DNA from: Kutzneria chonburiensis
GTDB lineage: Bacteria; Actinomycetota; Actinomycetes; Mycobacteriales; Pseudonocardiaceae
Direction of reading: 5' to 3'
NCBI RefSeq assembly: GCF_028622115.1
Contig: NZ_CP097263.1
Location: forward strand, 9,497,501-9,561,500
Length of the DNA: 64,000 bases
Shown here: one piece after another, positions 1,112 to 13,989 of the stretch
Numbering within the stretch: the first letter of the stretch is position 1
Layout of the letters: every line of letters starts with the position of its first letter
The notes under the pieces: generated by a model
The model's input: only the letters and a program-made list of their open reading frames with translations
Told to the model about the DNA's origin: nothing
The model's database searches: none
Position numbers and translations under genes: made by a program

Positions 1112-2066
1112 GCACGATCTTGCCGGCCACGTCGCCGTCCAACATCGACTTGAGGCCCTCGGCGGCGTGGGAGAACGGCAGCTCGGCCCCGATCTGGGGG
1201 CGCACGCCGGCCAGGTCGCAGAACTTGAGCAGGTCGCCGAGCTCCTCACGGGTGCCCATGGTCGAGCCGACCACGCGGAGCTGGAGGAAGAACAGCCGCT
1301 GGAGCTCGGCGGCCGAGGCGTCGCCGGTGGTGGCGCCGGAGATCACCACCACGCCGCCCGGCTTCAACGACTTCATGCTGTGCGACCAGGTGGCCTTGCC
1401 GACGGTCTCGAACACGCCGTCCACCCGCTCGGGCAGCCGCGCGCCGGATTCGAATGCCTCGTGCGCGCCGAGCTGCTTGGCCAGGGCCCGCTTCTCCTCG
1501 CTACGCCCGGTGACCCACACCCGGAAACCGGCGGCGACGCCGAGCTGGATCAGCGCCGTGGCCACGCCACCGGAAGCGCCCTGCACCAGGATCGTCTGAC
1601 CGGGCCGCAGCTCCGACTTCACGAACAGCATCCGGTACGCCGTCAGCCACGCCGTGCCCATGCACGCCGCCTCGGCGAACGACAGCCCGGCCGGCTTGGG
1701 CAGGGCGTTGCGCCGCGGCACGATCACCGTGTCGGCGAAGGTGCCCTGGTGCTTCTCGGTGAGCAGGGTCCGCTTCGGGTCCAGCGTCTCGTCGCCGCCC
1801 CATTCGGGGTCGCCGATCACGGAGTGCAGCACCACCTCGGTGCCGTCATCCAACACGCCGGCGCCGTCGCAGCCCAGGATCATCGGGAACTGCTCGGGTT
1901 TGATGCCCACGCCGCGCAGCGTCCACAGGTCGTGCATGTTCAGGCTGGCCGCGCGCACCGACACGCTGACCCAGCCGGGCGGCGGCGTCGGGGTGTCGCG
2001 CTCGCCGACGACCAGCGAGGCGAGCGGGTCGGTCGGGTTCGGCTCGGAGGCGTAAACGGCGAACAT
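1092..2066 (-). CDS. Zinc-independent quinone oxidoreductase-type alcohol dehydrogenase (MDR superfamily)
   Basis: The 324-residue protein belongs to the medium-chain dehydrogenase/reductase superfamily. It has a GroES-like N-terminal half and a Rossmann half with the nucleotide-binding signature VQGASGGVATALIQL near residue 160. The cluster of catalytic-zinc ligands of true alcohol dehydrogenases is not evident, which fits NADPH:quinone oxidoreductase-like members. The ATG at 2066 is the first start and gives a full-length fold. The gene is convergent with the nitronate monooxygenase and overlaps it by 20 bases. Substrate unknown. Confidence 0.85.
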   Translation of the reverse strand: MFAVYASEPNPTDPLASLVVGERDTPTPPPGWVSVSVRAASLNMHDLWTLRGVGIKPEQFPMILGCDGAGVLDDGTEVVLHSVIGDPEWGGDETLDPKRTLLTEKHQGTFADTVIVPRRNALPKPAGLSFAEAACMGTAWLTAYRMLFVKSELRPGQTILVQGASGGVATALIQLGVAAGFRVWVTGRSEEKRALAKQLGAHEAFESGARLPERVDGVFETVGKATWSHSMKSLKPGGVVVISGATTGDASAAELQRLFFLQLRVVGSTMGTREELGDLLKFCDLAGVRPQIGAELPFSHAAEGLKSMLDGDVAGKIVLSRDAG

Positions 2067-2090
2067 ACGCCGAACCTATACCCTGGGTTG

Positions 2091-2372
2091 GTGTTCGACT
2101 GGCTCGCCGATACCTGGGACGGGATCGAGCTGTGGGTGGCGCAGCTGTGGTTCCCGGTGCAGTTCGCCCTGGTCATGGTGGTGCTGCTGCCGATTCTGCG
2201 GGCCGTGGCGTGGCTGATCGAGCGGGTGGTCGACCGGCTGGCGGCCTGGCTGGCGCCGCGGTACCGGGCCGAGCCCACGCTGTGGGGCGCCGAGGAGACC
2301 AAAGCCGACGAGATCGAACCGGTGGCGGCCGAGGAACGGCCCGCCGACGTGGGCGCCGGCCGGCCTTCGTAG
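2091..2372 (+). CDS. Small single-span membrane protein, unknown function
   Basis: This 93-residue protein starts at a GTG (a TTG lies immediately upstream). It carries a Trp-rich N-terminal amphipathic segment (FDWLADTWDGIELWVAQLW), one hydrophobic segment around residues 22-40, a basic stretch (RVVDRLAAWLAPRYR) and an acidic, alanine-rich tail. I do not recognise a family. It is divergent from the quinone oxidoreductase and lies 10 bases upstream of the secreted ribonuclease on the same strand, so co-transcription with the RNase-barstar pair is possible. Confidence 0.6.
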   Translation: MFDWLADTWDGIELWVAQLWFPVQFALVMVVLLPILRAVAWLIERVVDRLAAWLAPRYRAEPTLWGAEETKADEIEPVAAEERPADVGAGRPS

Positions 2373-2382
2373 GCTCAGCGGC

Positions 2383-2829
2383 GTGACATCGCGCCGACGC
2401 ATCACCTTCGCCCTAGTCGGCCTGGTCGTGCTCGTGCTGGCCGGTTGGCTGGTCAAGGACCTGACCGGCGGGGGCGCCAGCACGCCGACCACGACTTCCA
2501 CCTCGGCCAAGGCCACCGGCGCGGTTCCGGGGTCGTCGTCCGGCCTGCCGGTCAAGGCGCTGTCCTCGCTGCCCAAGGAGGCCGACGACACCTGGAAGCT
2601 GATCCAGAAGGGCGGGCCGTACCCGTACCCGAAGAATGACGGCGTGGTCTTCCACAACAATGGGAACCTGTTGCCGCGCAACAAGGACGGCTACTACCAC
2701 GAGTACACCGTCGACACTCCGGGCGCGAAGAACCGGGCCACCAAGCGGCTGATCACCGGGTCCCAACGTGAGCTGTACTACACCGACGACCACTACGACT
2801 CGTTCGTCGTGGTGGATCCGACACGATGA
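2383..2829 (+). CDS. Secreted guanyl-specific ribonuclease, RNase Sa/barnase type
   Basis: The product is a 148-residue microbial ribonuclease of the N1/T1/Sa superfamily, which cleaves single-stranded RNA after G by transesterification. An N-terminal basic and hydrophobic segment (RRRITFALVGLVVLVLAGWLV) acts as signal or anchor. A Thr/Ser/Ala-rich linker follows, then the catalytic domain from about residue 55. Active-site elements characteristic of RNase Sa are visible: YHEYTV with the general-base Glu, Arg residues in NRATKRLITG, and the general-acid His in YTDDHYDSF. It starts with GTG. The stop overlaps the barstar ATG by four bases, so RNase and inhibitor are probably translationally coupled. 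Confidence 0.88.
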   Translation: MTSRRRITFALVGLVVLVLAGWLVKDLTGGGASTPTTTSTSAKATGAVPGSSSGLPVKALSSLPKEADDTWKLIQKGGPYPYPKNDGVVFHNNGNLLPRNKDGYYHEYTVDTPGAKNRATKRLITGSQRELYYTDDHYDSFVVVDPTR

Positions 2830-3113
2830 GCGCCATGCGGCACGTACTGGACGGCTCCGCCCTGCACGACCGGCTCTCCGCGCTGGACGGCATTGCCGCT
2901 GCGCTGTCGTTCCCCGACTACTTCGGCCGCAACCTGGACGCGCTGCGGGACTGTCTGGTCGACCTGTCGTGGCTGCCGGCCGGCCAACACGTCCTGGTGT
3001 GGCAGCACTCGGGCGTGCTGCGCGGCGACGATCCGCAGGCGTACCAGCGGATCGTCGCCGTACTCGACCAGGCCGTCGAGGAGAACCCCGAGTTCCGCTA
3101 TCAGCTCTCCTGA
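2826..3113 (+). CDS. Barstar-family ribonuclease inhibitor
   Basis: The 95-residue protein matches the barstar fold: an N-terminal strand, the conserved FPDYFGRNLDALRDCL helix region that in barstar faces the RNase active site, and a C-terminal helix. Barstar proteins bind the RNase active site and protect the producing cell. The ATG overlaps the stop of the preceding RNase Sa-type gene (ATGA), which makes a cognate toxin-inhibitor pair very likely. The 3' end overlaps the convergent enoyl-CoA hydratase gene by 13 bases. Confidence 0.88.
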   Translation: MSAMRHVLDGSALHDRLSALDGIAAALSFPDYFGRNLDALRDCLVDLSWLPAGQHVLVWQHSGVLRGDDPQAYQRIVAVLDQAVEENPEFRYQLS

Positions 3114-3880
3114 GCCGGCACCCAGCTGGGCTTGCGCTTCTGCACGAACGCGGCGATGCCCTCCTGGCCTTCCTCGCCGGCGAAGTGCTTGGCCGACAGC
3201 TCCAGCATGTCGGTGAAGTCCTGGCCCATGTCCCCGGTACGGGGCTCGCGCAGCATCTCCTTGGTCGCCGCCAACGCGTTCGGCGCGCCCAGCGCCAGCA
3301 TGCCCGTGTAGCGGTCGACCTCGGCGTCCAGGCCGTCGGCCGGCACCGAGGCGTTGAGCAGGCCGATCCGCACCGCCCGGTCGGCGTCGAAGGTCTCGCC
3401 GGTGAGGAACAGCTCGTGGGCCGCGCGGGGCAGCAGCCGCGGCAGCACCGTCACGGAGATCACCGCCGGCACCACGCCGATGCGTACCTCGGAGAAGGCG
3501 AACGTGGCCGTGTCCGCGGCCACCGCGATGTCACAGGCCGCGACGATGCCGACGCCGCCGGCCCGGGCCGGGCCGGCCAGCTTGGCCACCACCGGCTTGG
3601 GGCTGGTCCACAGCTGCTCCAGGATCGCCGGGAACTCGTTGACGCCCTGCTGCTCCGAGCCGGCGCCGCCGGCCTCCTTCAGGTCCATGCCGGCGCAGAA
3701 CACGGTTCCCGTGTGCGCCAGCACCACCACCCGCACCTCGTCGTCCGCGATCGCGGACGACAGGTGGTCGCGCAGCTCCCGCCGCAACTGCGCGGACAGC
3801 GCGTTGCGGTTGTGCGGGGAGTCAAGGGTGATCGTCGCGATGCCTCGTCGCACCGCGTAGTGCACCAGCTCGTCAGCCAT
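3101..3880 (-). CDS. Enoyl-CoA hydratase/isomerase family protein (crotonase fold)
   Basis: About 259 residues from the ATG at 3880 (MADELVHY). I prefer this to an upstream GTG-type start because the conserved crotonase N-terminus begins here. The oxyanion-hole regions HNRNALS and FCAGMDL, and the helix after SEVRIGVVPA, are visible. The usual role is syn-hydration of enoyl-CoA in beta-oxidation or a related CoA reaction. Catalytic acids cannot be placed with confidence, so the specific reaction is open. It is divergent from the ALF-repeat gene, with a 298-base intergenic region between. Confidence 0.85.
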   Translation of the reverse strand: MADELVHYAVRRGIATITLDSPHNRNALSAQLRRELRDHLSSAIADDEVRVVVLAHTGTVFCAGMDLKEAGGAGSEQQGVNEFPAILEQLWTSPKPVVAKLAGPARAGGVGIVAACDIAVAADTATFAFSEVRIGVVPAVISVTVLPRLLPRAAHELFLTGETFDADRAVRIGLLNASVPADGLDAEVDRYTGMLALGAPNALAATKEMLREPRTGDMGQDFTDMLELSAKHFAGEEGQEGIAAFVQKRKPSWVPAQES

Positions 3881-3959
3881 GACCCGCACTCTAAACGCAG
3901 CGCCGGGCGCCCGGCTCGCTACGCCGATCGCCGCAGCCGGATACGTTTTTCGGCCGCAT

Positions 3960-4137
3960 ATCACAAAGGTGATCGACTTGTCTTTCGATACAGCTCTAAT
4001 AGTGATCGTCGTTACAATTCGCAGCGTAGACGGTCAGGTGAAGCCTGGATACGGTGGCCTGGTCGCGCGCCTGGCGCGACCAGGTGGGGGGATCATCGAA
4101 TAATGGCGTACGGCGTTTTCGCTGTACGCCATTTTTG
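3960..4137 (+). promoter_or_regulatory. Structured leader upstream of the ALF-repeat toxin gene: palindrome, hairpin and terminator/attenuator
   Basis: This AT-richer intergenic stretch contains, in order, the inverted repeat ATCAC-AAAG-GTGAT (3960-3973), a perfect 10-bp stem (4058-4067 with 4075-4084, 7-base loop), and a second 10-bp stem AATGGCGTAC/GTACGCCATT (4102-4111 with 4124-4133) followed by TTTTT. The last has the form of a factor-independent terminator and ends about 42 bases before the ATG at 4179. A promoter near 3980-4000 is possible (TTGTCT, then an AT-rich TCTAAT) but weak. Either the leader attenuates the toxin transcript, or a short RNA of about 130 nt ends here. The two hairpins are seen; the function is inferred. 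Confidence 0.55.
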
Positions 4138-4178
4138 GTCTGCCTCCCTTTGTTCGCGGTTACTCCATAGGGGGAAGT

Positions 4179-7100
4179 ATGCGAATAAACCGACAAGCGA
4201 GCCGTTTGTTGCGGGCAGTCGCCACGACCGTCGCGGCCACGGTGGCGATCGGCACGGTCGCGGTGCCGTCGGCAGCGGCCGACACGCCGGCGGCCACCGA
4301 GCGCCAGCAACTGGTGAAACTGGTGACCGCGGGCAGCGGCACCATCGTCGCCGGCGCCGCCGAGGCCGCGTTGTGCGGCACCGACGCGGACGTGCACACC
4401 TTCCTGACCACGCAGCTGGCGTTCATGCAGGAGACCCAGGACCGGGTCACCGTGCAGCGCATGCTGAACAGCGGTGGTCCGGCCACGCAGGCCGCGGCCA
4501 ACACCGCGCTCAGCGGCAACATCGCAGCCGTGCGAGCGTTCCTCACGAACGGCTGGCAGCAGCCGTGGAACGACGACGTACGGATCCAGATCACCCGACT
4601 GCTGTCCGCCGCCACCGGCCCGGTGGTGAAGCAGACGGCCAACGCCGCGCTCAACGGCACCATCGACGCCCAGCTTGCGTACCTCGGCACCGGCTGGCAG
4701 CAGGCGCAGGACAACGACGACCGGATCTCGGTGCAGCTGCTGGTCAACAACGGCGGCCCGAACGTCAAGCTGGCCGGCAACCAGGCGCTGTCCACGTCCA
4801 TCGAGGACGTCCGGCAGTTCCTGCGCAACGGCTTCCAGGTCGCGCAGCAGCGTGACGAGGAAACCGCGACTATCGCTCAGCTCGTCGCGCTGACGCAGAG
4901 CGCGCAGGCCCGGTCGGCGACCGCGTCCCAGGCCGCGAAGGACGCCGCCGCGCAGGCCGTCGCCGCCGCTGCGGCGGCCAAGGCGTCCGCGCAGGAAGCC
5001 GCCGACCAGGCCCAGAAAGCGAACAAGTCCGCGGCGCAGGCGGCCGACGCCGCGTCGCGCGCGGCCAACGCGGCCAAGCGCGCCGCGCAGGCCGCCCAGA
5101 CCGCGATCAGCTCCGCGCAGGCGGCGACCAACGCCGCGCGTGAGGCGTCCAACGCGGCGAGCCAGGCCGCGTGGGCGGCATCGATGGCTGGGCAGGCTGC
5201 GGCCAACGCCCGCACCGCTGCGGCGAATGTCGCCACCGGCAAGGCCACGGCCGAAACCGCCAGCAACGCCGCGAAGGCGGCCCGTGACGCGGCGGCCGGT
5301 GCGCGCTCCGTCGCGGACGCCATCCAGCACGCCATCGACGCGTCGAAGCAGGTCGCCACGGCCGCGCAGGCGGCGGCGCAGGCGGCGAGCGACGCCGCTG
5401 CCGCCGCCTCGGCATCCCGTGACGCGGGGAAGTACGCCGACGCCGCCGGTGCGAGTTCCGCCGAGGCGACCGCCGCGGCCGACCGTGCGCAGCGCAACGC
5501 CGACGAAGCCAAGCGCGCCGCCGGCTCGGCGACAGCCCTGGCGAACGAGGCGGCCAACGACGCGGCGCAGGCGCGGCAAGCCGCACTCGACGCCGCCGCG
5601 CATGCCGATGCCGCTGCGGCGGCCGCCGACGATGCGGCCAAGCACGCCGGCGAGGCCGACGGGGCCACGGCGCGGGCCGACGCCGCCGCACAGGAGGCCG
5701 ACACCGCGGCGACCGACGCACAGAACGCCGCCGACCAGGCCAAGAGCACGGCCGACCTGGCCCGTCGGGCCGACGCCGAGCGGCTCGCCGAGCAGCAGTC
5801 GCAGGGCATGCGCGACGCCGCCGACGCCCTGCAGGACGAGCACGACAAGGTGGCCACGACGTCGTGGCAGGTCGGCACTCCGGAGCAGGTGGACCAGCAG
5901 ACCCAGGCGCTGCTGACCGAGGCCCGCAACCCGGCCACCGCGCCGGACGTGGCGTTGGGCGACGGCCGCCGGGCCGCCGACCGCCTGTGGAACAGCGCCG
6001 GGCCGCAGGTCCGGCTGGCCGCCATCGCCGCGCTCGGCGGCAGCACGGCCGACGTCACGACGTTCGTGCAGACCGGTCTGGCCGCCGCGATCGGGCGGGA
6101 CGACCGGTTCAGCCTGTCCATCGTGGGCGGCGCGTCCCTGGTGCCGGCGCAGCGCACCGCCGCCCAGACCGCCGGGGCCGGCAGCGACGACCAGGTCAAG
6201 CAGTTCCTGGTGACGCGGTCGTACCAGGGGAAGGTCGACGACGACCGCATCGAGGCGCAGAAGATCCTCAACACCGGAGGGCCGGCCACCAAGGCCGCCG
6301 CCAACGCGGCGCTGAACGGCACCCCGGACGACGTGGCCAAGTTCCTGGCGACCGGCCAGTACAAGGCGGCTGAGGACGACGACCGCGCCGCGACGCAGGT
6401 GATTCTGAACAACGGCGGTCCCGAGGTGAAGGCGGCGGCCAACGCGGCGCTGTCCGGGCCGTGGTCGTACGTGCAGCAGTTCCTCAAGGTCGGCCAGTAC
6501 CAGGCGCAGCTGCGCGACTCCGACGCCGCCCAGCACGTTGCCGAGATCAACGGCTACCTGGCCGACGCCGCGCAGGCGGCGGCCAACGCCAAGGTCAACG
6601 CCGCCAACGCGCACGTGGCCGCGGCGCAGGCGCACCAGGCTGACGACCAGGCGCACTACTGGGCCGACCAGGCCGCGCAGTCCGCCACGGCCGCCGGCAA
6701 CGCCGCAGCAGACGCAAAGAAGTCGGCCGACGCGGCACAGGCGTCCGCCAATGACGCGGCCGTGTCCGCGCAGCAGGCTCGCGACGCCGCGGCCGCCGCG
6801 CAGGGCAGCGCCGACGCGGCGCGCAACTCCGCCGCCGCTGCCGCGCAGTCGGCCGCTCAGGCCAACCAGTTCGCGGCCCAGGCCCAGGCTTCCGCCCAGC
6901 AGGCGGCCGCCGACGCCTTGGCCGCCGGCAAGGCCGCCGCCGACGCGGCCGCCGCCGCCAACGACGCGTGGAACAGCGCGTACAAGCTGAAGAACAACAA
7001 CGCCGCCCAGCAGGCCGTGACCGCGGTCGAGAGCACGCTGCAGAACCTGCGTGACCAGACGGCCGCCGCCATCGCCAACCATCCCGAGCTGCAGCCGTTG

Positions 7101-7907
7101 CTGGACACCCTCAACCAGGTGCTCAGCATGATGGACACGATGGCGCACGCCACCGCGGACTACATCCGGGACCACTCCGGCGAGCTGCTGGCGTTGCTAC
7201 AGCACCTCATCCAGGTCGGTGGCGGCCTCGGGCTCGCGCTGAGCGGTGTCGGCTCGATCGCCGGCGGCCTCGCCGCCTGCGGTGTGGACGTGACGACCGG
7301 CATGGAGATCGGCGGCGCCTCCACCCTCGAGTTCGGTCCCGGCGCGCTGGCCGGCGCCGCGGTCGGCGGCGTCGGCGGCCTGCTCGTGTGCATCTTCGCC
7401 GGCGGCGGGGCCATCGCCGGCGGCATCGCGGCGATCCTCAAGGGCCTGACCGTGGCCATGTCCGGCATCGAGGGCGCGGCCGACGACGTCAAGAAGCTGG
7501 TCCAGAACCGGGGATCGCTCGAAGGCCAGAAGAAGGTCGAGGTCTTCACCAAGCCGGGCAGCGGCCGTGACCCCATCACCGATTTCGATCACATCGAGAA
7601 CGGCATCCTGTGGGAGGACAAGACCGCGGTCTCGGCCGGCAACCCGACCAAGCCCGGGGACATCGGCGATCCGGCCAAGTGGGCGCGGGAGCAGGTGTCG
7701 GACAAGTTCGACAAGTATCTTGATGCTCGGGCCAACGGCTATCTGAAGGATGGCAGCCCGGTGCCGGACGAGTACAAGAACTGCCCGATCGGATTGCGGA
7801 TGGAGACGCCGGGCGTGCAGCCTGAGCTGCGCACGGCGATCGAGGCCGCGGTCGACGCGTGGCGTGCGGCACACCCAGACGTCACACTCTTGTTGGAGTT
7901 CAAGTAA
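4179..7907 (+). CDS. Secreted ALF-repeat, Ala-rich coiled-coil protein with putative PD-(D/E)XK-type nuclease C-terminus (polymorphic toxin)
   Basis: The 1242-residue protein starts at ATG after a strong GGGGGAAG ribosome site. Residues 1-35 form a signal peptide (ends PSAAADTPAAT). Two blocks of ALF-type short repeats (units built on LNxGGPxxxxAANxALxG and FLxxGxxxAxxxDD) lie at about 40-240 and 620-785. Long Ala-rich coiled-coil stretches follow each, at about 240-545 and 790-935. A Gly/Ala hydrophobic segment lies at about 1008-1090. The last ~130 residues differ in composition and contain DFDHIENGILWEDKTA, with Asp1135/Asp1137 and an E1146-x-K1148 pair, the pattern of restriction-endonuclease-fold toxins. 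A gene overlapping the stop by one base is the candidate immunity gene. The nuclease assignment is inference from motif and architecture. Confidence 0.75.
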   Translation: MRINRQASRLLRAVATTVAATVAIGTVAVPSAAADTPAATERQQLVKLVTAGSGTIVAGAAEAALCGTDADVHTFLTTQLAFMQETQDRVTVQRMLNSGGPATQAAANTALSGNIAAVRAFLTNGWQQPWNDDVRIQITRLLSAATGPVVKQTANAALNGTIDAQLAYLGTGWQQAQDNDDRISVQLLVNNGGPNVKLAGNQALSTSIEDVRQFLRNGFQVAQQRDEETATIAQLVALTQSAQARSATASQAAKDAAAQAVAAAAAAKASAQEAADQAQKANKSAAQAADAASRAANAAKRAAQAAQTAISSAQAATNAAREASNAASQAAWAASMAGQAAANARTAAANVATGKATAETASNAAKAARDAAAGARSVADAIQHAIDASKQVATAAQAAAQAASDAAAAASASRDAGKYADAAGASSAEATAAADRAQRNADEAKRAAGSATALANEAANDAAQARQAALDAAAHADAAAAAADDAAKHAGEADGATARADAAAQEADTAATDAQNAADQAKSTADLARRADAERLAEQQSQGMRDAADALQDEHDKVATTSWQVGTPEQVDQQTQALLTEARNPATAPDVALGDGRRAADRLWNSAGPQVRLAAIAALGGSTADVTTFVQTGLAAAIGRDDRFSLSIVGGASLVPAQRTAAQTAGAGSDDQVKQFLVTRSYQGKVDDDRIEAQKILNTGGPATKAAANAALNGTPDDVAKFLATGQYKAAEDDDRAATQVILNNGGPEVKAAANAALSGPWSYVQQFLKVGQYQAQLRDSDAAQHVAEINGYLADAAQAAANAKVNAANAHVAAAQAHQADDQAHYWADQAAQSATAAGNAAADAKKSADAAQASANDAAVSAQQARDAAAAAQGSADAARNSAAAAAQSAAQANQFAAQAQASAQQAAADALAAGKAAADAAAAANDAWNSAYKLKNNNAAQQAVTAVESTLQNLRDQTAAAIANHPELQPLLDTLNQVLSMMDTMAHATADYIRDHSGELLALLQHLIQVGGGLGLALSGVGSIAGGLAACGVDVTTGMEIGGASTLEFGPGALAGAAVGGVGGLLVCIFAGGGAIAGGIAAILKGLTVAMSGIEGAADDVKKLVQNRGSLEGQKKVEVFTKPGSGRDPITDFDHIENGILWEDKTAVSAGNPTKPGDIGDPAKWAREQVSDKFDKYLDARANGYLKDGSPVPDEYKNCPIGLRMETPGVQPELRTAIEAAVDAWRAAHPDVTLLLEFK

Positions 7908-8281
7908 TGAGTGTCAGCTTTCAGCTCCGGGACGCGCCGGGCAAGCTCTGGAATCCGGCCAGCGGGGTCGGGCGCACCTACCTCGGTGTCGCCCGGCTGA
8001 TCGAGGCCGAGAACCCGGAGTTCCCGGCGCTCGACACCTGGCTCAGCGTGTGGACCAGTGACGACTTCTGGATCGACCCGGCCGGTCTGGCCGTGTGGCT
8101 CCGCGCCGTTCTGGACAGCTCGGTCGTCGGGCACACCCAGTACTTCCGTCTGACCCGTGGGTTCCTCGAGATCAGCCTCGGCATGCTGTTCCGGGCGGGT
8201 GGCGACATGGAGGCCGTCAACTCGGACCAGGCCGAGTTGATCGCGGCCGGGCGTGAGCTGGAGCGATCCATGGTTCGCTGA
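7907..8281 (+). CDS. Candidate immunity protein for the ALF-repeat toxin
   Basis: This 124-residue cytoplasmic protein has no signal peptide. It begins at an ATG whose A is the last base of the toxin's TAA stop (TAATG), the tightest possible coupling. I do not recognise a family from the sequence. It is Trp- and Leu-containing, with segments such as WLSVWTSDDFWIDPAGLAVWL and ends RELERSMVR. Position directly after a polymorphic-toxin C-terminus is the main evidence that it neutralises that domain. A strong bidirectional terminator follows and closes the two-gene unit. The immunity role is inferred. Confidence 0.65.
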   Translation: MSVSFQLRDAPGKLWNPASGVGRTYLGVARLIEAENPEFPALDTWLSVWTSDDFWIDPAGLAVWLRAVLDSSVVGHTQYFRLTRGFLEISLGMLFRAGGDMEAVNSDQAELIAAGRELERSMVR

Positions 8282-8295
8282 CAAGACAGCAAAAA

Positions 8296-8340
8296 GCGTG
8301 TGCCCGGCCTCCGCACGAACGGCCGGGCACACGCTTTTCT
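8296..8340. terminator. Bidirectional factor-independent terminator
   Basis: A perfect 14-bp stem (8296-8309 with 8321-8334, 11-base loop) is flanked by AAAAA on the left and TTTTCTT on the right, so it can terminate in both directions. It sits between the immunity gene and the convergent secreted-protein gene, whose stop is at 8352. Confidence 0.9.
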
Positions 8341-8351
8341 TACGGACTCCG

Positions 8352-8975
8352 TCAGCCGATCGTGGTGGTGGTCAGCGTCGGGGCCGGGTTCGGGTAGCAC
8401 GTGGTCGGGGCGTCGACCGGGAAGCCGAAGACCGAGACCGTGGTGGTGAACTTCAGGCCGGCGTCGGTGTAGCTGGTGCCGGCCAGCGTGGTGGTGATGG
8501 TGCCGGAGGCGCCCGCGGTCAGGTTGAGCGTCAGGGCCGGCAGCTGGAACTGGGCGCCGCCGTTGATCGGGCCGGTCACCGAGGTGACGATGTTGTTGCC
8601 GACCTGGGCCACCGTCGCCGAGCCGAAGCCGGAGCCGCCGGAGAGGCTGAACGAGTTCACCGTGGCGTTGGCCGGCACCGGCACGGCCAGGGTGAGGTTC
8701 TTGACGGACTTGACGGTGAAGGCGCCGGCCGAGGTCGGCACGGTGTTCACGCCGGGGGCCAGCGTGATGGTGAGCGCGTCACCGGGCGCCACCGTCGCCG
8801 GCGCGGTCGAGTCGACGTTCTGGGACAGGGTCGTGTTGGTGGTCTGCCCTGCCGCCTTGCCCTGGCAGGAGTAGTTGACGGACTGGGTGTCGGCCGAGGC
8901 CACGCCGGCGAGCCCCAACAGCGGCACGATCGCCAGGGCCGCACCGGCCAGCAGGCGGGAGCTGGTCTTGATCAC
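8352..8975 (-). CDS. Secreted beta-rich protein of unknown function
   Basis: The 207-residue exported protein has a signal peptide of about 30 residues (AALAIVPLLGLAGVASA cleavage region). It is followed by a Thr/Val/Ser-rich, beta-strand-like chain with a single N-terminal Cys (VNYSCQGKA) and one near the C-terminus (TTCYPNP), which could form a disulphide. I chose the GTG at 8975 because GAGGTGG lies six bases upstream of it; the ATG at 8990 has no ribosome site. No catalytic motif is visible. It is probably a cell-surface or extracellular protein, and I do not recognise the family. Confidence 0.65.
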   Translation of the reverse strand: MIKTSSRLLAGAALAIVPLLGLAGVASADTQSVNYSCQGKAAGQTTNTTLSQNVDSTAPATVAPGDALTITLAPGVNTVPTSAGAFTVKSVKNLTLAVPVPANATVNSFSLSGGSGFGSATVAQVGNNIVTSVTGPINGGAQFQLPALTLNLTAGASGTITTTLAGTSYTDAGLKFTTTVSVFGFPVDAPTTCYPNPAPTLTTTTIG

Positions 8976-10768: not shown

Positions 10769-11540
10769 GGCTGCTGATCACCTCGCGCAGGCTCGTGTTG
10801 ATCTCCTCGGTGGTGGCGGCCTGGGCCGTGCCGTCCAGCCCGTCCACCGACCACTCGCGCACCACGCGGCCGGGCCGCGAGGACAGAAGCACGACGCGCT
10901 GCCCCAGCCGAACCGCCTCGCGCACGTCGTGCGTCACGAACAGCACCGCGGTGTTGGTGGAGCGCCACACCCGCAGCAGCTCGCCCTGGAGCACGTCACG
11001 GGTGATCGCGTCCAGCGCCGAGAACGGCTCGTCCATCAGCAGCAGCGCCGGCGAACCGTCCTGCGCGCCCTGCACCGCGGACGCCAGCGCGCGGGCCAGC
11101 GCCACCCGCTGGCGCATGCCGCCGGACAGCTCGTGCGGGCGCTTGTCGCCGAGACCGCTCAGCCGCACCAGTTCCAGCAGCTCACCGGCCCGCTCACGGC
11201 GCTCGGAGCGCCGCACGCCGGCGAACCGCAGCGCCAGCTCCACGTTGCGGGACGCGGTCAGCCACGGCATCAGCGCCGCCTCCTGGAACATCACGGCCGG
11301 GCGCGAGGTGCTCAGCGTGATGTCGCCCGCGGTCGGCCGGTCCAGGCCGGCGACCAGGTTCAGCAGTGTCGTCTTGCCGCAGCCGGACGCGCCGAGCAGG
11401 CACACGAACTCGCCCGGCGCGACCGACAGGTCCACCCCCTCCAGCGCCGACACGGCCGTCCGGCCGGCGCCGAAGCTCTTGTGCACGCCGGTCAGTCGCA
11501 CGGCAGTGGTCATGGCGGAGGTCTCCAGCGTCGCGGTCAT
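10755..11540 (-). CDS. ABC transporter ATP-binding protein, sulfonate/nitrate/taurine type
   Basis: The 261-residue ATPase has all canonical motifs: Walker A GASGCGKTT, the Q-loop in VMFQEAALMPWL, signature LSGGMRQR, Walker B LLLMDEP, and the switch His in FVTHDVREA. It is close to the SsuB/TauB/NrtD group. It is encoded between the lipoprotein gene (30-base gap) and the permease gene (14-base overlap). It energises uptake at the cytoplasmic face of the membrane for the proposed sulfur compound. Confidence 0.88.
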   Translation of the reverse strand: MTATLETSAMTTAVRLTGVHKSFGAGRTAVSALEGVDLSVAPGEFVCLLGASGCGKTTLLNLVAGLDRPTAGDITLSTSRPAVMFQEAALMPWLTASRNVELALRFAGVRRSERRERAGELLELVRLSGLGDKRPHELSGGMRQRVALARALASAVQGAQDGSPALLLMDEPFSALDAITRDVLQGELLRVWRSTNTAVLFVTHDVREAVRLGQRVVLLSSRPGRVVREWSVDGLDGTAQAATTEEINTSLREVISSHAAA

Positions 11541-11570
11541 GTCCTCGCCTGCCTCAATCGGTCCGGTCGG

Positions 11571-12644
11571 TCACTTCTGGTCGAGACCGCCGGCGGAGAC
11601 CGCCGGCTTGCCCGCCGCCTGGAGCACCTTGTTCAGCAACGTGAGGTCGGCAAAACCCTGCACCGCCGGCGCGGTCTTGGCCACCCCCGCCGTCACCTGG
11701 TCCTTGGCCAGCTGCGGGAACTGCGCGGCGATCGGGTCCGTGGTGAGCGAGATCTGGCCCCACGAGTCGTCGATCACGTTCTGCGCCAACGCCTTGCCGG
11801 TCAGCTTCTTGAGCTGGGCGTTGACCGCGGCCTCGGCGTCGGCCTTGTTCGAGGTGGCCCAGTCGACCGCGTCCAGCTCGCCCTTGAGCAGCGCCTCAAC
11901 GGTGGCCGGGTGCTGCTGGAGGAACTCGGTGCGCACGATCAGCACGGTGGTCGGGAACTTGCCGTCCGGCCACTGCGTGCGCTCGTCCACCAGCACCTTG
12001 GCCCCGCCCTCGATGACCAGGCGGGACGACCACGGGGCCGGCGACCAGGCCGCGTCGATGCTGCCCTTCTTGAACAGGTCGAGCGTGGTGGCGTTGTCGG
12101 AGTTGGTCACCTTGACGTCGTCCGGGCCGGTGCCGACCGTGAGCTTGTTGGCGGCCAGCCACTTCTTCAGCGCGATGTCCTGGGTGTTGGCCAGCTGCGG
12201 CGTGGCGATGGTCTTGCCCTTGAGGTCGGCCGCCGAGGTGATGGTGTTGCGCACCACCAGCTGCGCGCCGCCGGAGGTGGCGCCGGCGACCAGCGTCACG
12301 CCCTTGCCCTCGGACTTGGCGTAGGCGTTGATGGCCGGGCCGGAGCCGATGAACGCCGCGTCCAGCGACTTGCCCAGCAGCGCGCCGACCTCGTCCGGCC
12401 CGGCGTTGTACTGCTGGGTGGACAGCTTGGTACTGCCCAGTTCCTTGGCGAAGAAGCCCTTCTCCAGGCCGATCAGCGCGGCCGCGTGCGTGACGTTGGG
12501 GAAGTAGCCGAGGTGCACCTCGGTGGCCGCCCCCTGGTCGGCGGCGGCCGGCGCGGGCGCGTCCGCGCCACCGGCGCGCGAGCACGCGGTCAGCAGTGCT
12601 AAAGCGGACACTCCGGCGGCAAGGAGAACGGCTCTACGCTTCAC
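11571..12644 (-). CDS. ABC transporter substrate-binding lipoprotein (SsuA/NrtA/TauA-like)
   Basis: The 357-residue periplasmic-type binding protein has a lipoprotein signal peptide with lipobox LLTAC, so it is lipid-anchored outside the membrane. The mature chain shows the NMT1/SsuA pattern: HLGYFPNVTHAAALIGLEKGFF at the N-terminus, then GSGPAINAYAKSEGKGV. It lies 16 bases after cysN, in the same direction as the sulfur-assimilation genes and the following ATPase and permease genes. Sulfonate or related sulfur-ester binding is inferred from this neighbourhood. Confidence 0.85.
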   Translation of the reverse strand: MKRRAVLLAAGVSALALLTACSRAGGADAPAPAAADQGAATEVHLGYFPNVTHAAALIGLEKGFFAKELGSTKLSTQQYNAGPDEVGALLGKSLDAAFIGSGPAINAYAKSEGKGVTLVAGATSGGAQLVVRNTITSAADLKGKTIATPQLANTQDIALKKWLAANKLTVGTGPDDVKVTNSDNATTLDLFKKGSIDAAWSPAPWSSRLVIEGGAKVLVDERTQWPDGKFPTTVLIVRTEFLQQHPATVEALLKGELDAVDWATSNKADAEAAVNAQLKKLTGKALAQNVIDDSWGQISLTTDPIAAQFPQLAKDQVTAGVAKTAPAVQGFADLTLLNKVLQAAGKPAVSAGGLDQK

Positions 12645-12660
12645 TGGGATTCAGTCCCTT

Positions 12661-13989
12661 TCAGGGGCCAGGGGAGACGAGGTCTTGGGCGGCCGGATCG
12701 GCCTCGGAGATTTCCGGCTGGTCCAGTTGGGAGAGCGGAGCGCCGACCAGACCGCCGGCCAGCGTGCTGCCGTCGGCCGGGTCGATCACCAGGAACGCGC
12801 CGGTGCGCCGGCTGTCCGCGTAGTCATCGATCGGCAGCGGCTCGGCGCTACGTAGCACCACCCGACCGATATCATTCAGTGACAAGGACTCCGGCTCGTC
12901 CACACTGGACAGAGTCTGCTCATCGAACCGTGACCGCAACTGCGTGACCAAAGCCTGGACAGTTCGGGCCCCGTGCTTGACAAGCACGCGCGCGCCGGGT
13001 CGCAGCGGCTTGTCGCCCAGCCAGCACAGCGTCGCGTCGAACTCGTCCGACACCCGCGGCGGGGCCGCCGCCGCGGCGATCAGATCGCCGCGTGAGATGT
13101 CGACATCGTTGCCCAGCAACAAGGTCACGGATTCACCGGACTCGGCCGTCTGCTTCGGACCGTGCGGCGAGTCGATGCCGGTCACCGTGGTCGCGATGCC
13201 CGACGGCAGCACCACCACCTCGTCGCCGACGCTGATCTGGCCGGCGGCGATCTGGCCGGCGTAGCCGCGGTAGTCCGGGAACTCGGCCGTGCGCGGGCGG
13301 ATCACGTACTGCACCGGGAACCGGAACGGGGCGTCCTCGGCGTCGGCGTGCACCGGCACGTTCTCCAGGTGCTCCAACAGGGTCGGGCCGTCGTACCAGG
13401 GGGTCTGGTCCGAACGGTCCACCACGTTGTCGCCGACCAGCGCCGACACCGGAATGGTCACCACGTTCGACTCCGGGTAGCCCAACTCGGTCGCGTGGGC
13501 AGTGAACTCCTTGGCGATACGGCGATACGTGGGCTCGTCGTAGCCGACCAGGTCGATCTTGTTCACCGCCAGCACCAGCTGCGGCACGCCCAGCAGCGCC
13601 AACACCGCCGCGTGCCGCCGGGTCTGCTCGACGACGCCGTTGCGGGCGTCGACCAGCAGCACACCCAGCTGCGCGGTGGACGCGCCGGTCACCGTGTTGC
13701 GCGTGTACTGCACGTGCCCCGGCGTGTCGGCCAGCACGAACGACCGCTTCGGCGTGGCGAAGTAGCGGTAGGCCACGTCGATCGTGATGCCCTGCTCCCG
13801 CTCCGAGCGCAGGCCGTCGACCAGCAGCGACAAGTCCGGAGTGGACAGTCCGCGGTCGGCCGACGCCCTGTGCACCGCGTCCAGCGTGTCGGCCAGCACC
13901 GACTTGGTGTCGTACAGCAGCCGGCCGACCAGCGTGGACTTGCCGTCGTCCACGCTGCCCGCGGTGGCCAACCTCAGCAACTGGCTCAT
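12661..13989 (-). CDS. cysN: Sulfate adenylyltransferase subunit 1 (GTPase)
   Basis: The 442-residue EF-Tu-like GTPase has G1 GSVDDGKST, G3 DTPGHVQYTRN and G4 NKID, followed by two beta-barrel domains. CysN couples GTP hydrolysis to APS synthesis by CysD (ATP + sulfate to adenylyl sulfate + PPi). Some actinobacteria have a CysN-CysC fusion. Here the protein ends without an APS-kinase domain, consistent with the APS-type reductase encoded upstream. The ATG directly abuts the cysD TAA stop with no intervening base. Confidence 0.93.
   Translation of the reverse strand: MSQLLRLATAGSVDDGKSTLVGRLLYDTKSVLADTLDAVHRASADRGLSTPDLSLLVDGLRSEREQGITIDVAYRYFATPKRSFVLADTPGHVQYTRNTVTGASTAQLGVLLVDARNGVVEQTRRHAAVLALLGVPQLVLAVNKIDLVGYDEPTYRRIAKEFTAHATELGYPESNVVTIPVSALVGDNVVDRSDQTPWYDGPTLLEHLENVPVHADAEDAPFRFPVQYVIRPRTAEFPDYRGYAGQIAAGQISVGDEVVVLPSGIATTVTGIDSPHGPKQTAESGESVTLLLGNDVDISRGDLIAAAAAPPRVSDEFDATLCWLGDKPLRPGARVLVKHGARTVQALVTQLRSRFDEQTLSSVDEPESLSLNDIGRVVLRSAEPLPIDDYADSRRTGAFLVIDPADGSTLAGGLVGAPLSQLDQPEISEADPAAQDLVSPGP

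Follow-up and report, generated by a model that had tools for sequence, protein, structure and literature searches.

The 64,000-nucleotide stretch of contig NZ_CP097263.1 of Kutzneria chonburiensis analysed here (the window) carries an umbC-like gene whose product is, by its homology, an UmbC-type polymorphic toxin stalk, known from the secreted umbrella (Umb) particles of Streptomyces coelicolor. The gene is directly followed by a small gene encoding a DUF6086 protein, and the pair is in all likelihood best explained as the UmbC of an umbrella particle with a nuclease warhead and its DUF6086 immunity protein. The parts of the locus are as follows (positions in the window; evidence in brackets):

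4179..7907, + strand: umbC-like gene, 1242-amino-acid (aa) ALF-repeat/coiled-coil polymorphic toxin stalk (open reading frame (ORF), Pfam, UmbC1 alignment)
4179..4280, + strand: signal-peptide-like N terminus, about residues 1–34 (sequence)
4302..4844, + strand: ALF repeats, first block (PF03752 places in the own genome and Pfam)
4899..5738, + strand: first Ala-rich coiled coil, about residues 241–520, limits approximate (UmbC1 alignment and composition)
5967..6506, + strand: ALF repeats, second block (PF03752 places in the own genome and Pfam)
6579..7058, + strand: second Ala-rich coiled coil, about residues 801–960, limits approximate (UmbC1 alignment to residue 953 and composition)
7206..7433, + strand: Gly/Ala-rich hydrophobic segment, residues 1010–1085, which precedes the toxin domain (sequence)
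7488..7904, + strand: C-terminal toxin domain, predicted PD-(D/E)XK-like nuclease, residues 1104–1242 (AlphaFold2 model, invariant residues)
7907..8281, + strand: DUF6086 gene, 124 aa, probable cognate immunity protein in the role of UmbD (PF19564 match, adjacency to the toxin domain)
3919..4219, no strand assigned: about 300 bp without homology to the sister locus, with a terminator-like hairpin at 4102–4133 (comparison with L013, the corresponding locus of the sister genome G003)

The ORF, its two ALF blocks, the Ala-rich coiled coils, the Gly-rich segment, the motif residues of the tail and the one-base gene overlap are all as the original prediction, made from the DNA letters, had described them, a match well outside what chance would produce. 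The frame is intact across 1242 codons, and its stop TAA ends at 7907, the first base of the following ATG. ALF repeats occupy eight stretches of the protein (Pfam, E 4.5e-69), seven of which are listed in the PF03752 scan of the own genome. The Ala-rich stretches, with 45–53% Ala in the first (40-residue windows) and 30–55% in the second, are called coiled coils from composition and from the UmbC1 alignment. In this alignment, residues 14–953 match residues 25–965 of UmbC1 (8w20_A) in a single stretch (phmmer against PDB sequences, E 3.4e-105), which was the only PDB match of the large protein at E <= 0.01. Since PDB entry 8W20 represents the Umb1 particle of S. coelicolor (Zhao et al., 2024; PMC11062931; follow-up paper, PMC13274773), the layout of the window protein is already known, and the earlier claim that it was uncharacterised is rejected.

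According to the text describing these particles, the ALF repeats form a ring holding lectin spokes, the two coiled coils form a stalk with the toxin at its end, and umbC1 is immediately followed by umbD1, which encodes the immunity protein (PMC11062931). The proposal of a secreted polymorphic toxin with ALF repeats and coiled coils as its delivery structure hence agrees with the alignment; within that structure the coiled coils do correspond to the stalk, whereas the ALF repeats correspond to the ring. The ALF repeat had already been named a stalk module of polymorphic toxins in 2012 (PMC3482391). The same description has the particles secreted and not attached to the producer surface, with related actinobacteria as published targets (PMC11062931), so that of the predicted contact- or secretion-dependent action the secretion is retained, and a surface-bound, contact-dependent toxin was rejected as a candidate. 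Apart from the shared collinear stretch, the window protein differs from the UmbC of S. coelicolor (PDB 8w20/8w22): it comes from another actinobacterial family, umbA and umbB are missing at the locus, no twin-arginine pair is visible by eye in the hydrophobic, signal-like N terminus, and warhead and immunity family differ from those named in the text of PMC11062931. The gene is accordingly classed as an UmbC protein and not as a complete umb locus.

The last 139 residues of the protein carry the motif I-x-D-x-D...G-x-L-x-E-x-K, which recurs in 38/38 aligned copies (the frameshifted copy of G007 excluded). D1135, D1137, E1146 and K1148 are identical in all of them; for the 31 copies retrieved by a peptide pattern with G-x-LWE-x-K the conservation of Glu and Lys is circular, while both Asp lie outside the pattern. 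An AlphaFold2 model of the domain (predicted local distance difference test, pLDDT, 91.1) shows the order b-b-b-a-b-a-b, with D and ExK in a beta hairpin. The model is confident and its order is PD-(D/E)XK-like, but the fold matches are weak and Foldseek returned no significant match for it. On the strength of the motif (D1135, E1146-x-K1148), the domain is a probable metal-dependent nuclease of the PD-(D/E)XK kind, in line with the nuclease-like D...ExK tail suspected at the outset.

Among published families, the Tox-REase domains share the D/ExK signature, and Tox-REase-7, listed with IxD, ExK and Q, comes close to the window domain, in which however the listed Q is not kept (Zhang et al., 2012; PMC3482391, in its listed signatures). 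The CdiA-CT DNases TA271 and YPIII (PDB 4G6U, 4ZQU) have a Ser two positions before the Lys where the window domain has Glu and, as toxins of contact-dependent inhibition (CDI), belong to Gram-negative two-partner secretion, unlike the window toxin. No meaningful match to the domain was obtained in Pfam, NCBIfam or PDB sequences: 13 members searched against Pfam at E <= 10 gave nothing but one chance-level PT-TG, the domain profile found no match among PDB sequences at E <= 10, and hhalign comparisons with a single REase-3 tail and with two REase-7 sequences were negative as well. As judged by these searches, the toxin family is without coverage in Pfam or NCBIfam and the warhead is new to general family libraries.

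The 124-aa protein encoded downstream is a member of DUF6086 (PF19564), matching profile positions 1–119 of 119 with its residues 1–124 (58.3 bits against a cut-off of 31.9), a family for which Pfam gives no function and which is tied to the toxin domain in the window. This tie extends well beyond Kutzneria, as a DUF6086 gene stands directly downstream of the toxin domain at 37 of 39 distinct places (30 of 31 named loci and 7 of the 8 others, namely the window, L012, G003, G007, G205, G233, G421 and G586). The named loci, six of which coincide with loci also seen under G handles, span Amycolatopsis, Nocardia, Streptomyces, Actinomadura, Saccharopolyspora, Kibdelosporangium and others; in the genome samples the domain was found in 10/297 genomes of the same family and in 4/394 of the class (G000 included). 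At the two exceptions, a methyltransferase gene comes next (L012, by eye) or the domain is truncated (L137), and in G007 the domain itself is broken by a frameshift. Distances between toxin domains correlate with those between the DUF6086 proteins (r 0.746, 34 pairs, 0/2000 permutations), as shared descent would give as well. Judged by its position, DUF6086 very probably provides the immunity to this toxin domain. No paper naming DUF6086 or PF19564 was found, a search that did not cover the supplements of the Umb papers; these list 77 toxin families together with immunity families, and the pair may already be among them.

Moreover, the pair appears on several chassis, consistent with the proposal that the downstream gene moves with the tail. 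Pfam scans of 21 domain-bearing proteins or frames identified a chassis domain in 11, comprising ALF repeats (window, L012, L110 and L111, as well as L123 together with PT-HINT), T7SS_signal with DUF6531 and RHS (L041, L131, L132), DUF6531 with RHS and PT-HINT (L037), T7SS_signal (L118) and a Scabin-like domain behind an N terminus that is ESX-like by eye (L019); L013 carries ALF repeats according to the PF03752 scan. At the thresholds used, the other ten gave no chassis domain (L032, L034, L035, L036, L042, L043, L113, L114, L124, L130). The 887-aa protein of L019 (at 1492–4155 of that locus) combines the Scabin-like domain, presumably of the ADP-ribosyltransferase type, with the same toxin domain behind it, and thus apparently holds two warheads in one protein.

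Other ALF proteins of the genus end in different tails, in the comparison of C termini that the original prediction had proposed. Ntox44 is found at L074, and the tail at L076 of G003 matches CdiA_C_tRNase below the threshold; the small gene after it, of about 110 aa, has no Pfam match and is maybe another immunity family. By eye, L079 of G002 has the same tail and small gene, and both L076 and L079 hold neighbouring ALF genes. L077 has an ALF frame with a Tox-REase-3 domain behind it in another reading frame and an Imm7 gene after that; this ALF gene looks broken or misread. Small as the sample is, it fits an exchange in which tail and next gene would swap together on one chassis.

The comparison with the sister genome bears on whether the window gene is still in use. 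In G003, the orthologues of umbC and DUF6086 (89% DNA identity) adjoin a divergent umbB-umbA pair, and an enoyl-CoA hydratase gene on the far side is common to both genomes. In place of some 2.5 kb of the sister that include umbB and umbA, the window has the roughly 300 unrelated bp at 3919..4219; this replacement takes in umbB-umbA, the region upstream of umbC and its first ~14 codons, and DNA homology to L013 starts at 4220. Terminator-like sites in 3900–8500 give no sign of function (one found, 2.8 expected by chance), and no match to UmbA or UmbB was found in the 64-kb window (best E 0.079). The ratios of nonsynonymous to synonymous substitution rates (dN/dS) against G003 are 0.213 for umbC, 0.29 for the toxin domain, 0.106 for DUF6086 and 0.099 for the hydratase as control, by which the window umbC is still under constraint, although these values cover the entire interval since the divergence from G003 and not just the interval since umbA-umbB were lost, and are compatible with recent decay. 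On the other side of the pair, the distance from DUF6086 to the next gene common to both loci is about 10 bp in the window, and L013 has about 3.3 kb extra there (2590–5905). About 1 kb from umbC, the window further contains a second toxin-inhibitor pair, also present at L013, in which the gene for a barnase-like ribonuclease (PF00545, 75 bits) overlaps a barstar gene (PF01337, 92 bits; 2383–3113).

Elsewhere in the same genome there are four UmbB genes, at 3.55, 4.24, 6.18 and 10.35 Mb, the window lying at 9.50 Mb. Three belong to other umb loci (L012, L074, L075), and the fourth, at 10.35 Mb (L107, 6214–6765), is unlinked; it is 82% identical to the UmbB of L012 and has an UmbA-like gene about 5 kb away (11451–13157), with no umbC seen within the 14 kb examined around it. 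A second UmbC is encoded at 3.55 Mb (L012, 4389–8162), with umbA and umbB adjoining and a warhead 57% identical to that of the window, but a DUF6086 gene is absent beside it, and apart from the window copy the genome gave no DUF6086 match at E <= 0.001. At L074 (2145–3281), UmbB is fused to the trypsin-like part of UmbA, with homology across two reading frames, so that the part from UmbA seems to be disrupted or misread.

By analogy with the published particle, the window UmbC would be secreted against competing bacteria, its ALF ring binding UmbB adaptors that carry lectin-bearing UmbA spokes, whose lectins would guide targeting, and its two coiled coils forming a stalk with the 139-residue warhead at the tip. 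The warhead would cleave nucleic acid in a metal-dependent manner, as its motif suggests, and the DUF6086 protein, from its position, would block it in the producer. UmbB and UmbA could come from other loci, e.g., with the umbB at 10.35 Mb or 3.55 Mb. The sequences themselves provide the UmbC homology, the invariant motif, the linkage of toxin and DUF6086 over different chassis and the lack of local UmbA/UmbB, and we infer the rest. Some observations weigh against this explanation. The published account describes UmbC1 as specific for UmbB1 and UmbA proteins as able to bind several UmbB (PMC11062931), so that borrowing of a foreign UmbB by the window UmbC is not assured. Esterase folds are among the top VIA matches of the toxin-domain model, and in the reverse direction the domain stands upstream of DUF6086 at 10 of 27 places in the family sample and not at the other 17 (some of the 27 partial, one below the cut-off, with ~1.5 kb around each looked at). 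The original prediction had held such a downstream gene without the tail to speak against it; these 17 places show the pattern of solitary immunity genes, and the link of 37/39 from the toxin side stands unaffected. A wider version, in which DUF6086 is the immunity family of uncatalogued PD-(D/E)XK-type toxins in umbrella, type VII/RHS and other secreted toxins across actinobacteria, the orphan umbC borrows UmbB/UmbA and one DUF6086 guards two warheads, is tentative, and we give it somewhat less than even credit.

The window UmbC may either take its spokes from other loci or be in the course of being lost while DUF6086 stays. The latter, a decaying orphan umbC that is silent or useless without its promoter, start region and umbA-umbB, with selection keeping DUF6086 against the second UmbC or neighbours, is rather unlikely: it is favoured by the replacement of the umbA-umbB pair and of the region to codon ~14, by the single DUF6086 copy in the genome, by its lack at the second toxin copy, and by a lower dN/dS of DUF6086 than of the toxin domain, but the 1242-codon ORF is intact, its dN/dS is low, motif residues and a signal-like N terminus remain, and the genome holds an unlinked umbB and UmbA-like gene. 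A toxin tail that has DUF6086 for immunity but is not a nuclease, with D...ExK on another alpha/beta fold and another substrate, would fit the esterase folds and the failure of Foldseek and of searches against known nuclease families; we consider it improbable in view of the invariant I-x-D(-x10-)E-x-K in a beta hairpin, near the IxD, ExK listed for Tox-REase-7 (PMC3482391), and of CdiA-CT YPIII, which ranks with the best VIA matches (111/139 residues aligned). Still less credible, and in our view very improbable, is the view of DUF6086 as a conserved neighbour that serves some other purpose, e.g., as a secretion chaperone, as the DUF6086 places lacking the toxin domain might suggest: DUF6086 follows the toxin on differing chassis whose probable export routes differ, none of the DUF6086 matches in the genus falls at the other ALF loci examined, and solitary copies fit orphan immunity genes.

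With the UmbC explanation, DUF6086, a Pfam family without a function, gains a testable immunity role, and a warhead is added that Pfam and NCBIfam miss. The K. chonburiensis genome also makes two questions about umbrella toxins open to direct test, namely whether different particles can share UmbB adaptors, as the orphan umbC would call for, and whether one immunity protein could guard against two related warheads, the second of which has no immunity gene beside it.

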